Source: a virus
Direction: 5' to 3' (one strand)
DNA: 64,000 nt
Virus record (IMG/VR): IMGVR_UViG_3300050821_003659
Location: 1-64,000 of that record
The notes under the pieces are model-generated. The model made no database searches. It saw nothing but the letters and a program-made list of their open reading frames with translations, and was not told where the DNA came from. Below, one piece after another: positions 12,495-59,843 of the stretch. The number at the start of each line of letters is the position of its first letter. The first letter of the stretch is position 1. The translations under genes and the position numbers were made by a program.

Positions 12495-13010
12495 CTATTT
12501 CTTGAAGAACGTCGGAAGAGTCTTCCAACGCTCACGGGCCTTAGCCCGCATCCCTGTACCGGGATCGTAATCTGGGTAGAGTGAGCGAAACTTCCGCTCG
12601 GCTCCCAGCAGACTGTCGCCCATCTCTCCGATAGCTCGGAGAAACATCAGCATCAGTGTGGTGCTGCGTGAGTGACCTGCGATGCAGTGCACAAGAACCT
12701 TGTCACCTGCGTCGTATCTTTCCTTGATGAACTTCAACCCCGCGTCGATCACCTCGTCGGGGATCATGTCAACGTCGTCGGCGTCAATTAGGTTCAACGC
12801 CATGTGCTTCTCATCCACGCGGTAGAAGTAATAATTTTTGTCCTGCGGTGCACCGAGCGTTGTGTACCCGAGGACTGCCCTGTGGCAATCGTCGGAGCCA
12901 TCTTTGCACGCGGCGAGAATCGAGTACCCGCGTTTCTCTGCGATTGGCAGAGCCTCTTTGTCACCCACGTAAAGCCGTGGGATGATCTCTTCGAGAATGG
13001 CCTTGTACAT
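12495..13010 (-). CDS. Dual-specificity protein phosphatase
   Basis: 171 residues with the cysteine phosphatase signature HCIAGHSRS: Cys109 and Arg115 form CX5R, with Ser116 following. Asp77 or Asp78 and neighbours could supply the general acid. The fold removes phosphate from Tyr/Ser/Thr (or other phosphates) through a phosphocysteine intermediate. Finding it inside the morphogenesis operon, next to terL, is unusual and suggests late expression or packaging in the virion, acting on phage or host proteins. The family call is firm; the substrate is unknown. Confidence 0.88.
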   Translation of the reverse strand: MYKAILEEIIPRLYVGDKEALPIAEKRGYSILAACKDGSDDCHRAVLGYTTLGAPQDKNYYFYRVDEKHMALNLIDADDVDMIPDEVIDAGLKFIKERYDAGDKVLVHCIAGHSRSTTLMLMFLRAIGEMGDSLLGAERKFRSLYPDYDPGTGMRAKARERWKTLPTFFKK

Positions 13011-13020
13011 CGCTCCTCCG

Positions 13021-13323
13021 TTAATCGGTCAAGATGATGCTCGACTTCGGTGCGGGCGAGGGAACCACCTTGGTTGCTACGGCGTCAGTCGGGGTAACAG
13101 TTTCTCCCGCACCCTCAGCCTTCTTCTGTGCTGCGATCTTCGCTTCCGCGACCTTCTTCACCTGTGCCGCCATGTCAGCGACGAAAGACTTGAGAACGAT
13201 GTTCGCGTAATCTGTTGCGAACTGGCATGTCGTGCTATCGAGGATGACCTTGATACCGTTCAAGTCCCATGCCTGTGCGAAGGCTTTGGTCTGCTCCAAC
13301 GTGATGCTAGGAATTAGTGGCAT
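13021..13323 (-). CDS. Small helical hypothetical protein
   Basis: 100 residues starting MPLIPSITLEQTKAFAQAWD. Residues about 25-70 are helical and Ala/Lys-rich; the tail is Pro/Thr/Ser-rich. No family recognised. Its start overlaps the end of the 13307-13591 gene by 17 bases, indicating translational coupling. Confidence 0.7.
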   Translation of the reverse strand: MPLIPSITLEQTKAFAQAWDLNGIKVILDSTTCQFATDYANIVLKSFVADMAAQVKKVAEAKIAAQKKAEGAGETVTPTDAVATKVVPSPAPKSSIILTD

Positions 13324-21628: not shown

Positions 21629-21915
21629 GCGGCAAAGAGCCAAAAGTCGTCTATCTCGATGGAAACATTGAGCTTGGATGGTTTCGGATGGGCCGGGGCG
21701 TTCCTGACGGCGTGTCTGTGGCTCCTGTAGGAGGGACAATCCACCTCCAGACCTTCCGCATCGCGGAGTGTGCGAGGTTGAAGGATGCCCGCCTCTTTCG
21801 CGATCTGTTTCACAAACGGTTCCGGCACTGCTGGGCACGCGGCGACTGGTTTAAGAACCTCGACATCGTGGACGCGATCAAAGCATTCGACGTGTTGATG
21901 AGGAGTGAACAGTGA
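21604..21915 (+). CDS. Small hypothetical protein (TTG start)
   Basis: 103 residues starting at TTG 21604 after GGAG; there is no ATG until the middle. Product begins MTTIQTTIRGKEPKVVYLD and has a basic helix RLFRDLFHKRFRHCW. No family recognised. It overlaps the polymerase start by four bases (GTGA), so the two are probably translated together. Confidence 0.65.
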   Translation: MTTIQTTIRGKEPKVVYLDGNIELGWFRMGRGVPDGVSVAPVGGTIHLQTFRIAECARLKDARLFRDLFHKRFRHCWARGDWFKNLDIVDAIKAFDVLMRSEQ

Positions 21916-23999
21916 GACGACTCTGGCTGGACTTCGAAACTCGTTCGATGCTGAACATCAAAAAGGTCGGTCTTGACCGCTACGGCAAGGACAAGACGAC
22001 TCAGGTGCTCATGCTGGCGTGGGCTTTTGATTACGACAAACCCCGTCTGTGGCTCCCCTGTCTCGGGGAACCGATGCCCCCGGAACTCTACGCCGGATTG
22101 ACAGACCCGACAGTTCTGAAGTGTGCGTGGAACTTTAACTTCGAAAAAGACATCCTGCACTTTCAACTCGGGATCGCGATTCCGCTGGTTGAGTGGTACG
22201 ACCCCGCAACGCTTTGTGCTTACATGTCGCTGCCTATCGGCTTGCACCGAGCCAGCCAAGCACTCGACATCGACACGAAGAAAGTTCACATCACGGGCGA
22301 CGAGCGTCCTGTGAAGATGTTCTCGAATCCGTCGAAGCAGTTGAAACGCGTGCTGAAGAAAAATCCTGACGCACCTGCGTTTTACTTCAAGGATTGGAAC
22401 TCGCATCCTGAGGACTGGGCGATCTTCTGCTCGTACTGTATTCAGGACGTGGAGGCGGAACGCGGCGTGTGGGAGGCTGCGGTCGCATTCAACTCCCCGA
22501 TGACGCACGGCGAGAAAGAGGCGTGGCTCCTCGACCAGAGGATGAACGACAACGGTGTCTGGATCGACATGCAGTACGTCCTGAACGCGATGAAGGTCGC
22601 ACAGGGCGAGGCCGACCAGATCATCGCAGAGATGAAACTGGAAACGGGTCTGGAGAATCCGAACAGCCGCGACCAGATTCTCGAATGGTTGCAAGCACGC
22701 AATTATCCGTTCGAGAGCGTGGACGTTGAGCACATCGAGGAGGCACTGAAAGAACAGAAGCGTTACAAGATGCCGCCACTCGCGATCAAGATTCTGCTGC
22801 TGAAGCAGAAGCTGGGCGGCTCCGCGTACAAGAAGCTGCAAAGCATTCTCGACCGCGTCGGCCCTGATGGTCGCTTGCGAGATCAGTTCACTTATCACGG
22901 AGCACACACGGGTCGGTGGTCTGGACGCGGCGTGCAGTTGCAAAATCTGTACAAGCCTGACCGTGAAGTCTCTCGTGCGTTGGAGCAGCTAGTCACCGCA
23001 CTGCGAGACGGTACGCTCGACATTCCGAATGTCATCACCACGTTTGACGCGGAGATTGACACATGGAACTCCGCAAATCCTGCGGAGAAACCAAAGAAGC
23101 ACCTTGACCCGAAGCCCTTCACACCGATGGAGGTGGTCGCGTCAACGATCCGGGCCGCGTTCGCTGCGGCACCGGGGAACAAACTGGTTGTCGGTGACCT
23201 TGCACAGATCGAGTCACGCGTGCTGGCTGCAATCGCACAGTGTCCGACGATGCTCTCCGCGTACGCAGAGGGCCGCGATCTTTACAAGGAAGTGATGGCG
23301 GCACAACTCGGCATTCCGCTGAGCGAAGTCACCAAGGCACACCGCGACCGAGGCAAGGTCATCATCCTCGGCTGCGGATACGGGATGGGCTGGGAAAAGT
23401 TCATCGACTACGCCCTCACGTACGGCATCGTGCTCACCGAGAAGGAAGCGAAGGATGCAGTCTGGGGATTCCGCGAGACGTACAGCGAGATCGTGGACTT
23501 CTGGGCAGAGATCAATCAGGCAGTCATCACGGCGTTCAAGGCGGGCATCTGCGTGTACGTACGCGGGCTGGTCGTAGATGGGCGAGATGAGAAGTGCCTG
23601 AAGATCAAGCTGCCGAGCGGACGGTACATTCACTACCACAAGCCGACACTGCTGTTCGAGCCTCCACCGTGGGGCGGGCCACCTAAAGAGTCGATCAGCT
23701 TCATCATGTACGGCTCGAAGGGTGCGGAGAGCAAGCGGCTTTACGGCGGGCTGCTCACTGAGAACATCGTTCAAGCGGTCGCACGCGATCTGTTGTTGAA
23801 CGGCATGCTTGAGGCCGAGAAGATGGGCTTCAAGATCATTATGACGATTCACGACGAGATAGCTGGTGAGGTGCCAATAGATTCTCCGCTGGGAGAGAAG
23901 GAACTTCTGGCGGCGATGTGCATCGTCCCCGAGTGGGGCGAGGGCATGGGGTTCGTACTCAAGGCAGAAGGGTACGAGAATCCGTACTACAAGAAATAG
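21912..23999 (+). CDS. Family A DNA polymerase with 3'-5' exonuclease
   Basis: 695 residues from GTG. LDFETRS (6-12) begins a DnaQ-like exonuclease, with the CAWNFNFE segment following. The polymerase domain shows motif A VVGDLAQIESRVLA (about 426), the O-helix region HRDRGKVIILGCGYG (about 476), and motif C IHDEIAGEVP (about 645). This is the replicative polymerase type of many phages. It overlaps the preceding gene by four bases. Confidence 0.93.
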   Translation: MRRLWLDFETRSMLNIKKVGLDRYGKDKTTQVLMLAWAFDYDKPRLWLPCLGEPMPPELYAGLTDPTVLKCAWNFNFEKDILHFQLGIAIPLVEWYDPATLCAYMSLPIGLHRASQALDIDTKKVHITGDERPVKMFSNPSKQLKRVLKKNPDAPAFYFKDWNSHPEDWAIFCSYCIQDVEAERGVWEAAVAFNSPMTHGEKEAWLLDQRMNDNGVWIDMQYVLNAMKVAQGEADQIIAEMKLETGLENPNSRDQILEWLQARNYPFESVDVEHIEEALKEQKRYKMPPLAIKILLLKQKLGGSAYKKLQSILDRVGPDGRLRDQFTYHGAHTGRWSGRGVQLQNLYKPDREVSRALEQLVTALRDGTLDIPNVITTFDAEIDTWNSANPAEKPKKHLDPKPFTPMEVVASTIRAAFAAAPGNKLVVGDLAQIESRVLAAIAQCPTMLSAYAEGRDLYKEVMAAQLGIPLSEVTKAHRDRGKVIILGCGYGMGWEKFIDYALTYGIVLTEKEAKDAVWGFRETYSEIVDFWAEINQAVITAFKAGICVYVRGLVVDGRDEKCLKIKLPSGRYIHYHKPTLLFEPPPWGGPPKESISFIMYGSKGAESKRLYGGLLTENIVQAVARDLLLNGMLEAEKMGFKIIMTIHDEIAGEVPIDSPLGEKELLAAMCIVPEWGEGMGFVLKAEGYENPYYKK

Positions 24000-24744: not shown

Positions 24745-24891
24745 GGGCACACGCGGTTACGGAACTGGGTGTTCAATCACTCAGATCGCAACCAACGGAG
24801 ACTTTGTCAGAAAAGAACGCACGTGAAACGTCGCGACGAGTAGCGTGCAAGTAATCCGTTGGGAATGGTGGTTCGAGTCCACAGGTGCCCA
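24745..24891 (+). ncRNA. tRNA-like element with enlarged arms
   Basis: GGGCAC (24745-24750) pairs with GTGCCC (24885-24890), followed by A and CC. A T-arm with loop TTCGAGT sits at 24868-24882. GCGG (24753-24756) can pair with TCGC (24786-24789) as a D-stem whose loop holds a 7-bp hairpin CTGGGTG/CACTCAG. The anticodon position holds an 8-bp stem CCAACGGA/TCCGTTGG (24792-24799 with 24855-24862) around 55 bases. No anticodon loop is apparent. It could be a decayed or intron-bearing tRNA or a tRNA mimic. Confidence 0.5.
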
Positions 24892-24980
24892 CCGACATTG
24901 AGGTTGCTGATGTGAGAAGGCTAAACTCTGACGTGTAAAATGCGACCGAGCCTTGGAAGTAGGTCGTGTTTCCAAAAAGT

Positions 24981-25009: not shown

Positions 25010-25080
25010 CAGCACGTGAAGTCGTGCGTCGAGCCGCCACGTAAGGGGCGGGGAGATATAGTCATAATGCTGCTGGGTCA

Positions 25081-25177
25081 TTTTGGGCGAGGGGCTTCAC
25101 TCGCCCACCGAATTACGCAAGTATGAAGGCGTTGTTTCCGTTTTCGGACGCGGGTTCGATTCCCGCCGCCTCCACCA
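25081..25177 (+). ncRNA. ssrA: Permuted tmRNA, acceptor piece
   Basis: The 3' end of a tmRNA, placed before the 5' part. T-stem GCGGG (25150-25154), loop TTCGATT, CCCGC (25162-25166), acceptor strand CGCCTCC (25167-25173), A74-equivalent and encoded CCA (25175-25177). The preceding TTTTCGGAC is typical of tmRNA. The acceptor strand pairs with GGGGGCG at 25277-25283 and includes the G3-U70 wobble needed by alanyl-tRNA synthetase. The mature 5' end of this piece is not determined; a GGGCGAG/CTCGCCC hairpin lies at 25085-25106. Confidence 0.88.
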
Positions 25178-25276
25178 AAGATGCTGAATCAGCGACACAG
25201 TGTGCACACGTCGTGTGATTGAGGTTCGTTTAACTCCTCACGATAGAACACGCTTGAGAGGTTCAGCACTTTTGAT
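25178..25276 (+). other. Intervening segment of the permuted tmRNA
   Basis: Between the CCA of the acceptor piece and the 5' G of the coding piece. Its ends can pair: TGCTGAA (25182-25188) with TTCAGCA (25262-25268). It is expected to be removed during processing, leaving a two-piece RNA. Confidence 0.75.
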
Positions 25277-25595
25277 GGGGGCGTCAAGGCTTCGACGGAG
25301 GCGATGAGATGGCGTTGGACTTGCCGAGGTTGTATGGCTCCTCGTTAAACAGACATGCAAAAACCAAACGCAGAGACTAAACCCCTCGCGATGGCTGCTG
25401 CCGCTGGTCGGTAGAAGTCAGGAGGCTTTGCTCCCACCTTCTCAAATAACGGGAGCACTTTCATAGTCGCTCGTGATAGCATGAGGGCGACTGTTCAACC
25501 AGTTCGAACAAACGCACGGCACCTTGAGTACCCGTGCGACCCGTTGTCCCCATCGGATTGTGGCGGGACGTGAATCGTTGAACGAGCGACTATGA
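25277..25595 (+). ncRNA. ssrA: Permuted tmRNA, coding piece
   Basis: Starts GGGGGCG then TCAAGGCTTCGACGG, the tmRNA D-loop hallmark, then a GCCGAGG...CCTCGTTAAA segment matching pseudoknot 1. The resume codon is probably GCA at 25370, 20 bases after CCTCGTTAAA as in other tmRNAs. The tag reads AETKPLAMAAAAGR and stops at TAG 25412-25414. Downstream pairings include TGCTCCC/GGGAGCA and a perfect 12-bp CATAGTCGCTCG/CGAGCGACTATG (25462-25473 with 25583-25594). The 3' end is uncertain. It would rescue stalled ribosomes with SmpB; no phage smpB is seen. Confidence 0.85.
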
Positions 25596-49191: not shown

Positions 49192-49674
49192 ATGAAAAGC
49201 CTTTCCAAAGACGAGTTGAAGTCGCTGCTCGAAGTCGCTGGCCCGGACAGACTTCTGTTCACGGTGATGTTCAATCACGGGCTGCGGGTGTCTGAGGCTA
49301 TCGCCCTGAACGACACGAACGTCGTAGACGGACACCTTGTGGTGCAGCGTCTGAAGGGTTCGGAGAAGACCACCCAGCGTATCCTCGCGGACGAGGCACA
49401 ACTGCTCACGATGAAGGGCCGCTTCTTCCCGATGTCTCGCTGGACTGTGAACCGCCGTCTGCAAGAGGCGGGCGTGAAGGCGGGAATCCCCGAGCACAAG
49501 CTGCACGCTCACGTGTTGAAGCACACGACGGGGCGACTGGCGTATAAGGGCGGCTGCGGAGTGGCTGAGATACAGTCGATCCTCGGTCACAAGTGTGGCG
49601 GCAACTCGATGATCTACATGCAAGCTGATGAGTCCGAAGCGTACGCGGCGTTTGCTGCGGCGGTAGGCAAATAG
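49192..49674 (+). CDS. Mini tyrosine recombinase
   Basis: 160 residues, catalytic domain only. HGLRVSEA gives Arg32; HVLKHTTG has His107 and Lys110 where most members have HxxR; LGHK gives His133; Tyr142 is the likely nucleophile. Arm- and core-binding domains are missing. It may resolve genome multimers rather than integrate; no attachment site is seen. Has its own promoter. Confidence 0.8.
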   Translation: MKSLSKDELKSLLEVAGPDRLLFTVMFNHGLRVSEAIALNDTNVVDGHLVVQRLKGSEKTTQRILADEAQLLTMKGRFFPMSRWTVNRRLQEAGVKAGIPEHKLHAHVLKHTTGRLAYKGGCGVAEIQSILGHKCGGNSMIYMQADESEAYAAFAAAVGK

Positions 49675-58808: not shown

Positions 58809-59843
58809 ATGGCAGTTCGCACACTCGATCCGAAGCGACAGAGTTACAAAGCTGAGGCACTCGCGTCACGCCTCTCCCTCCGCATCGTCGGACAGACGGG
58901 GCCGACACAGGCCCTCCTCTCCGCAATCGCAAAGTATCAGAGCGGCTTCTACGACAAGACGAAGCCTATCTTCAGCATGCTTGGACTGGGGCCTACGGGC
59001 GTCGGCAAGACTGGCGTGTTTGAAGCCTTCGCGGAGGGCCTGTTCGGTTCTCCGAAGCACATGCTGAAGGTTGACTGTGCGGAGTTTCAGCACAGCCACG
59101 AGATCGCAAAGTTGGTCGGCTCTCCTCCCGGATATCTCGGACACCGTGAGACGCACCCGTTCTTTACGAACGCGTCTCTCGCGGCTCTGCGGACTCCTGA
59201 GCTAGACTTCACCATCGTTCTCTGGGACGAGATCGAGAAGGCAAGCGACTCTCTCTGGAATCTCCTACTCGGCATCCTCGACAAAGGGACGCTAACCACG
59301 GGGACGAACGAGAAGGTTGACATGACGAAGACGGTTCACCTCATGACCAGCAACGTCGGCTCTGCGGACATCAGCGACGAGGCATCTATCGGCTTCGACG
59401 CTGGACAGAAGCAGATGACCGACCAGCAGGTGAGCGACACCGTGATGGCTGCGGCACGCCGCAAGTTCATGCCCGAGTTCCTCGGTCGTCTGGACGAGAT
59501 CGCGGTGTTCAAGACTCTGACCGAGTCTGAGATCGCAGAGGTGCTGGGGCTGCAACTGAACGACCTGAGCGACCGCATCATGCTCAGTGCACCTGTACCT
59601 TTCGAGTTCAACGTGTCGCCCGCTGCTATCCGGCAACTGCTGAAGGAAGGATACGACAGGCGATACAACGCACGCGGTTTGAAGCACGTGATCGAGAAGC
59701 ACATCGCCCTCCCCCTTGGACGGCTGATGTCAACCGGACAGGTGATGCCAAATGACATCATCATCGTGGACTTCGACCAGAACTGGAAATACTATGCCCA
59801 AATCCCCCTTGCCCGAGCCGCTGCGGAAGGCGATATACTTTAG
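58809..59843 (+). CDS. ClpA/ClpB D2-type AAA+ ATPase
   Basis: 344 residues, a single AAA+ module. Walker A GPTGVGKT (61-68), VGSPPGYLGH pore segment, LWDEIEKA Walker B, TSNVG sensor 1, FLGRLDEIAVF with the Arg finger and RYNARGLKHVIE sensor 2 match the second ATPase domain of ClpA/B/C. N-domain, D1 and middle domain are absent. Pore GYLG suggests it threads protein; partner unknown. Confidence 0.85.
   Translation: MAVRTLDPKRQSYKAEALASRLSLRIVGQTGPTQALLSAIAKYQSGFYDKTKPIFSMLGLGPTGVGKTGVFEAFAEGLFGSPKHMLKVDCAEFQHSHEIAKLVGSPPGYLGHRETHPFFTNASLAALRTPELDFTIVLWDEIEKASDSLWNLLLGILDKGTLTTGTNEKVDMTKTVHLMTSNVGSADISDEASIGFDAGQKQMTDQQVSDTVMAAARRKFMPEFLGRLDEIAVFKTLTESEIAEVLGLQLNDLSDRIMLSAPVPFEFNVSPAAIRQLLKEGYDRRYNARGLKHVIEKHIALPLGRLMSTGQVMPNDIIIVDFDQNWKYYAQIPLARAAAEGDIL

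Follow-up and report, generated by a model that had tools for sequence, protein, structure and literature searches.

A circularly permuted two-piece tmRNA gene with a Gly-Arg tag end in a soil phage linked to Acidobacteriota

The IMG/VR virus record IMGVR_UViG_3300050821_003659 carries a genuine circularly permuted two-piece tmRNA gene, located in the genome of a tailed phage. The window, the whole stretch of DNA analysed here, comprises positions 1 to 64,000 of this record, which is 75,961 bases long. From the gene as observed, with its base pairing, conservation and tag sequence, it appears likely that the phage possesses a functional ribosome-rescue tmRNA, which would be processed, charged and used on stalled ribosomes, and whose tag probably escapes proteolysis. 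Permuted tmRNAs in phages are less rare than the earlier note on this DNA had claimed: 53 probable two-piece tmRNAs have been counted by ARAGORN in isolate phages, mostly marine (PMC9004378), and more unannotated cases were found in this study. The most unusual points were absent from that note, namely a tag end that is not of the degron type, the one-piece form of tmRNA in the likely host class, and the structured RNAs that adjoin the gene.

Anatomy and conservation of the permuted gene

The Rfam family RF04321 (tmRNA_permuted) matches positions 25117-25402 with 73.7 bits (E 2.9e-12; gathering cut-off 47 bits), and a permuted tmRNA at 25085-25505, its tag AETKPLAMAAAAGR followed by a stop, is predicted by ARAGORN. 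RF00023 finds the two halves separately (43.2 and 31.8 bits), and the alphaproteobacterial family RF01849 has no match at its cut-off in the window. The two checks that the earlier note had proposed, Infernal with a permuted model and ARAGORN, were both passed and, together with the same anatomy in relatives, bear out its reading of a phage-encoded circularly permuted tmRNA. The gene comprises the following parts.

25117-25177 (plus strand): acceptor (tRNA-like 3') piece, from the sequence and from H2 covariation between phages; the RF04321 match begins at 25117
25117-25122 (plus strand): 3' strand of helix H2, GCAAGT, part of the acceptor piece
25150-25166 (plus strand): T-arm GCGGG-TTCGATT-CCCGC, from the sequence
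25167-25173 (plus strand): acceptor 3' strand CGCCTCC, from the sequence
25174 and 25175-25177 (plus strand): discriminator A and then CCA, from the sequence
25178-25276 (plus strand): intervening spacer of 99 nt, with its closing helix
25182-25190 with 25260-25268 (plus strand): spacer-closing helix, TGCTGAATC with GGTTCAGCA, from pairing
25277-25460 (plus strand): mRNA piece, 3' end approximate, from the RF04321 and RF00023 matches, pairing and the 3' stem
25277-25283 (plus strand): acceptor 5' strand GGGGGCG, from the sequence
25291-25298 (plus strand): D-loop TTCGACGG, from the sequence
25319-25324 (plus strand): 5' strand of H2, ACTTGC, from the sequence
From 25324 (plus strand): PK1-like segment in the mRNA piece
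25370-25414 (plus strand): tag reading frame, with resume codon GCA at 25370-25372 and stop TAG at 25412-25414, from ARAGORN and manual reading
25429-25457 (plus strand): stem TGCTCCC/GGGAGCA after the tag, from comparison with relatives

The order of the parts is permuted, the 3' acceptor part lying 5' of the 5' part, with the spacer and its closing helix between them. The acceptor strands form seven of seven pairs, G3-U70 included, as had been noticed earlier, and CCA is encoded in the gene. The cmscan alignment contains a T-arm with a TTCGATT loop on a 5-bp stem and a D-loop without a D-stem. Helix H2 connects the tRNA-like and mRNA-like parts, the PK1 segment aligns to RF00023, the 3' stem is kept among relatives, and the tag frame with its resume codon and stop is kept in eight phages. 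The 5' end GGGGGCG at 25277, the loop, the PK1-like segment and the tag frame named in the earlier note could all be located, and the spacer proved to be exactly 99 nt long with pairing ends, as described there. The CCA that it placed at 25167-25177 is present, but only at 25175-25177, the remainder being the acceptor strand and the discriminator A. The spacer has a folding z of -2.5; by analogy with known two-piece tmRNAs, its removal would be expected.

Fifteen permuted phage tmRNAs were compared, including those of Xanthomonas phage Rb1 and Alcaligenes phage QDWS595. The acceptor is paired at seven of seven positions with G3-U70 in all 15, on six different acceptor sequences. The H2 strands pair better within phages than between them, a value reached by none of 20,000 permutations (15 phages), and H2 covariation is also found in the eight clade members described below (permutation p ~1e-4). 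A spacer-closing helix of 9-16 bp occurs in 13/15 genes, and relatives including Tunturiibacter phage Tunturi_3 have stems matching the post-tag stem, in which the sequence differs and the loop is similar. The structured segment 25472-25592, which lies 3' of the window tmRNA, resembles positions 13092-13196 of the related contig L004, which lie inside the L004 tmRNA spacer. The same contig has an open reading frame at 12624-13058 that is like the start of a LAGLIDADG endonuclease (YAAGLFDGEG; no Pfam match) and stops just 5' of the tmRNA T-arm, overlapping the acceptor piece.

The phage, its likely host and the neighbouring RNAs

The virus is a soil, podovirus-type phage linked to Acidobacteriota. 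Its record encodes a large terminase, a portal-type protein, a major capsid protein, a family A DNA polymerase, a primase/helicase and an RNA ligase. Also in the window are an AAA+ protein resembling the second domain of ClpB (58809-59843; PF07724, PF10431) and a small tyrosine recombinase-like gene (49192-49674) related to a Tunturi_3 gene annotated as integrase. The tmRNA is housed in a gene-poor stretch 3' of the polymerase; three features lie 5' of it.

21912-23999 (plus strand): family A DNA polymerase gene (PHROG 17, E 1e-107), which marks a clade always accompanied by the tmRNA
24745-24893 (plus strand): tRNA-like RNA with acceptor GGGCAC/GTGCCC, a T-arm and two further arms
24917-24966 (plus strand): H-type pseudoknot, AAGGCT/AGCCTT with GCGACC/GGTCG

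Polymerase searches in IMG/VR recovered relatives with 56-78% identity to the window. A permuted tmRNA lies 3' of the DNA polymerase in 8/8 clade members with a complete locus, these being the window and the seven relatives with a contig long enough (L004, L005, L006, L007, L008, L019 and L024); L017 and L023 were left out of the count, their contigs stopping before the locus could appear. The nearest cultured phage is Tunturi_3, with which the window phage has about 30 proteins in common (capsid 83%, portal 61% and terminase 47% identity) and whose host belongs to the Acidobacteriota (PMC11924767). Judged from such relatives, the host of the window phage is probably also a member of the Acidobacteriota. 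SmpB was found in none of 13 phage records, so host SmpB would be needed by the phage tmRNA. An RF-1 domain (PF00472, E 3.4e-9) is present in gp125 of Tunturi_3 (L067 34469-34807, minus strand), a protein some 110 residues long that may serve this cultured relative as a second ribosome-rescue factor.

Neither Rfam (E up to 10) nor ARAGORN recognises the tRNA-like RNA. Six homologues could be aligned, with 25 consensus pairs, of which 13 have a two-sided compensatory change; besides the window they lie at L004 12373, L005 13696, L007 12467, L024 about 9511 and L026 6855. This RNA lies near the permuted tmRNA in five phages, and a 332-kb contig has it within a tRNA cluster. A search with its model gave strong matches in six phage records only, and its presence in hosts was rejected, weak matches alone being obtained, in 2/151 Terriglobia genomes. 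As judged from this alignment, it is a new covarying family of tRNA-like RNA. The pseudoknot is also present in L004 and L005, the second stem of L005 being changed and still complementary (GTGCC/GGCAC; three sequences only). The motif gagatatagtc at 25052 had raised the possibility of a group I intron lying between pseudoknot and tmRNA, which Rfam did not support (E up to 5). L025, matched by the pattern GGGCAYACGCNGTTANGGAA, was set aside as it looks like coding sequence. A scan for sigma-70 promoters and terminators returned two weak promoter-like sites and no terminator.

The Gly-Arg tag end and its possible role

The window tag AETKPLAMAAAAGR ends in Gly-Arg instead of the hydrophobic Ala-Ala end of the degron type. 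An Ala-Ala end is usual in tmRNA tags without strictly defining them, the Carsonella tag ending in Lys; among 710 unique tags, Carsonella was the only species with a charged tag end as known in 2014 (PMC4131195). Five of the eight clade tags end in Gly-Arg: that of the window, AKTNTLAMGAAAGR (L005), ATPKRAFAAAAGR (L007), AETEKPRAFAAAAGR (L019) and ATTKPRAMAAAAGR (L024). They are spread over three polymerase subclades, and the two residues are encoded by synonymous codons, GGT CGG in four phages and GGA CGC in L007. RNA structure could account for part of the conservation of GGTCGGTA seen in four phages. The other three tags are ATTEKPKAFAAAA (L004), ending in AAAA, AKTNVKAFAAHA (L008), ending in AAHA, and ATTEKPKAMSATAGM (L006), ending in AGM, so that the Gly-Arg end is not essential. 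Elsewhere among the phages, the tag of the jumbo contig L026 is ANAPKAMAAHA, the permuted tmRNA of L002, an unrelated contig of IMG/VR, encodes ANENVYALAA followed by a stop, and those of Tunturi_3, Tunturi_4 and Tunturi_5 end in LAA, VAA and MAA (ARAGORN or manual reading). An Ala-Ala end was found in 30/30 one-piece Terriglobia tags and 27/27 two-piece alphaproteobacterial tags that were read. The narrow exact pattern of a permuted tmRNA with AAAAGR and a stop identified no bacterial gene with the same tag end in genome_contigs.

In the proposed mechanism, the precursor would be held by the acceptor stem and the spacer helix, and host tRNA-processing enzymes would cut it after CCA (25177) and before 25277. 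The two products, acceptor and mRNA piece, would stay together through the acceptor stem and H2; charged with alanine and carried by host SmpB, they would release ribosomes that have stalled on broken mRNA during infection. Proteins freed in this way would probably escape degradation, because AETKPLAMAAAAGR ends in Gly-Arg and not in the Ala-Ala carboxylate read by E. coli ClpX. This enzyme makes contact with the final two alanines of the tag and with its alpha-carboxylate (PMC7652416), and a Gly-Arg end is for this reason expected to be poorly recognised. Escape of the tag from proteolysis is probable by analogy with E. coli ClpX, which may not match the ClpX of Acidobacteriota.

The strongest competing explanation, although on balance unlikely, is that of an ordinary auxiliary tmRNA with a host-like function that includes proteolysis by a host or phage protease accepting Gly-Arg, the tag end being meaningless. 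Rescue is independent of how the tag ends, Gly-Arg is missing in three clade members and in the Tunturi phages, and the ClpB-D2-like AAA+ protein could be cited in its favour. However, Gly-Arg has been kept over three subclades, once through other synonymous codons, where the sampled bacterial tags end in Ala-Ala; a charged end is found in a single species among the 710 tags (PMC4131195), and the AAA+ protein is a fragment without a shown protease partner. Less probable still is a competitor role, in which the phage RNA would mainly titrate SmpB or occupy stalled ribosomes and so inhibit host trans-translation. A passage of PMC4131195 citing Mao et al. (2009) states that tag-less tmRNA domains inhibit tmRNA, and mini-tmRNAs without a tag are common in other phages; against this, the window gene has an intact, conserved tag frame closed by a stop codon, and 15/15 genes keep G3-U70, for which a pure decoy would have no use.

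Retention of the gene as an integration site, its 3' end serving as attP by matching host tmRNA, is very improbable. Up to 38 identical bases are shared with Terriglobia tmRNA 3' ends (at least 32 in 9/30), and the tyrosine recombinase-like gene would fit such a role. For this purpose the 3' end alone would suffice, yet both pieces, H2, the tag and the spacer helix are conserved; moreover, the recombinase is 24 kb distant and Tunturi phages form clear plaques (PMC11924767). A non-functional remnant or an assembly artefact might be suspected in a contig derived from a metagenome, but this can practically be dismissed: independent contigs share this gene and its position, with covariation, and the gene is also present in three cultured Acidobacteriota phages, and it is this conservation and covariation that refute the suspicion. 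Ribosome rescue with a tag that probably escapes proteolysis remains the preferred reading. If the Gly-Arg tag is truly proteolysis-proof, it would constitute a natural experiment separating ribosome release from protein destruction, showing which half a virus needs.

Relationship to bacterial and other phage tmRNAs

One-piece tmRNA scored above the cut-off in 54/61 Terriglobia genomes sampled. RF04321 did so in 1/299 genomes of this class, at a sole locus, L104, and in 68 of the 76 alphaproteobacterial genomes used as positive control. The Terriglobia locus (1264-2040) is a head-to-tail tandem of one-piece tmRNA genes that mimics a permuted gene across the junction. Tandem genes of this kind have been proposed as an intermediate on the way to permutation. 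A host two-piece tmRNA as source was rejected, the only Terriglobia match being these tandem one-piece genes. Descent from the alphaproteobacterial two-piece lineage was likewise rejected, as the T-loop differs. The genes nearest to the phage tRNA-like domain are one-piece genes, those of Terriglobia and, equally close, some others; the alphaproteobacterial identities in this comparison rest on two Microvirga loci only, the automatic extraction having missed others with a differing T-loop. A separate permutation is plausible from these sequences, in a comparison with one-piece and alphaproteobacterial genes. Two-piece phage tmRNA, one-piece hosts and a tRNA-like domain nearest to one-piece genes suggest a further origin of the split form. 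It may tentatively be proposed, with more doubt than confidence, that an Acidobacteriota-phage lineage obtained its tmRNA via a permutation separate from the alphaproteobacterial, betaproteobacterial and cyanobacterial ones, and that its Gly-Arg tag uncouples rescue from proteolysis, so that stalled ribosomes would be recycled for phage translation without feeding ClpXP.

Unannotated permuted tmRNAs were found in five cultured phages, Tunturi_3, Tunturi_4, Tunturi_5, Xanthomonas phage Rb1 and Alcaligenes phage QDWS595 (PP885686 88172-88396, PP885687 43532-43941, PP885688 157899-158195, PQ569993 16300-16605 and OK149171 55063-55316). The Tunturi_3 gene scores 63.3 bits, and the paper describing this phage reports tRNAs only and no tmRNA (PMC11924767); one such gene is also present in Tunturi_4 (79 bits) and one in Tunturi_5 (86 bits), and Tunturi_1 has no permuted tmRNA. 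With their host Tunturiibacter, Tunturi_3, Tunturi_4 and Tunturi_5 make phage two-piece tmRNAs testable beyond marine systems. The tmRNA database holds 79 phage sequences (PMC11915505). Tag-less mini-tmRNAs of 78-82 nt, consisting of the tRNA-like domain only, occur in 18 viral contigs, about a dozen of them distinct (L169-L186, with L009 8555-8636 as the starting point); 18/18 have seven of seven acceptor pairs and G3-U70, and 10/10 contigs tested pass RF00023. Pistol ribozymes share the contigs L175, L177 and L180 with them. A published phage example is the tag-less tmRNA domain of mycobacteriophage DS6A (PMC4131195, PMC11915505), which is likewise phage-altered but is not permuted, whereas the window gene has a full tag. 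These cases point to frequent remodelling of the tag-coding half of tmRNA by phages.

Among known systems, the one-piece Terriglobia tmRNA (RF00023) resembles the phage gene in its tRNA-like domain, where identity reaches 0.95 with the window and 0.96 with other members of the clade, but differs in its one-piece order and in tags such as ANTELALAA. The alphaproteobacterial two-piece tmRNA (RF01849) has the same permuted order, spacer and two pieces, and the clade member L008 even passes its cut-off (72.8 vs 50 bits); those of its genes that were inspected, however, have the T-loop GGGGGCGGTACCC in place of the TTCGANT of the phage clade, and its tags are of the form ANDN...AA. The marine phage two-piece tmRNAs of Melnitz and others (PMC9004378) share a complete permuted ssrA, a virulent-type phage and presumed ribosome rescue with the window gene, which differs in belonging to a podovirus-type soil phage linked to Acidobacteriota, in adjoining a tRNA-like RNA and a pseudoknot, and in a tag that ends in Gly-Arg. 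Two-piece tmRNAs in phages were thus already known, and what is new is the association with Acidobacteriota phages, a tmRNA form at odds with that of the likely hosts, and a tag ending in Gly-Arg.
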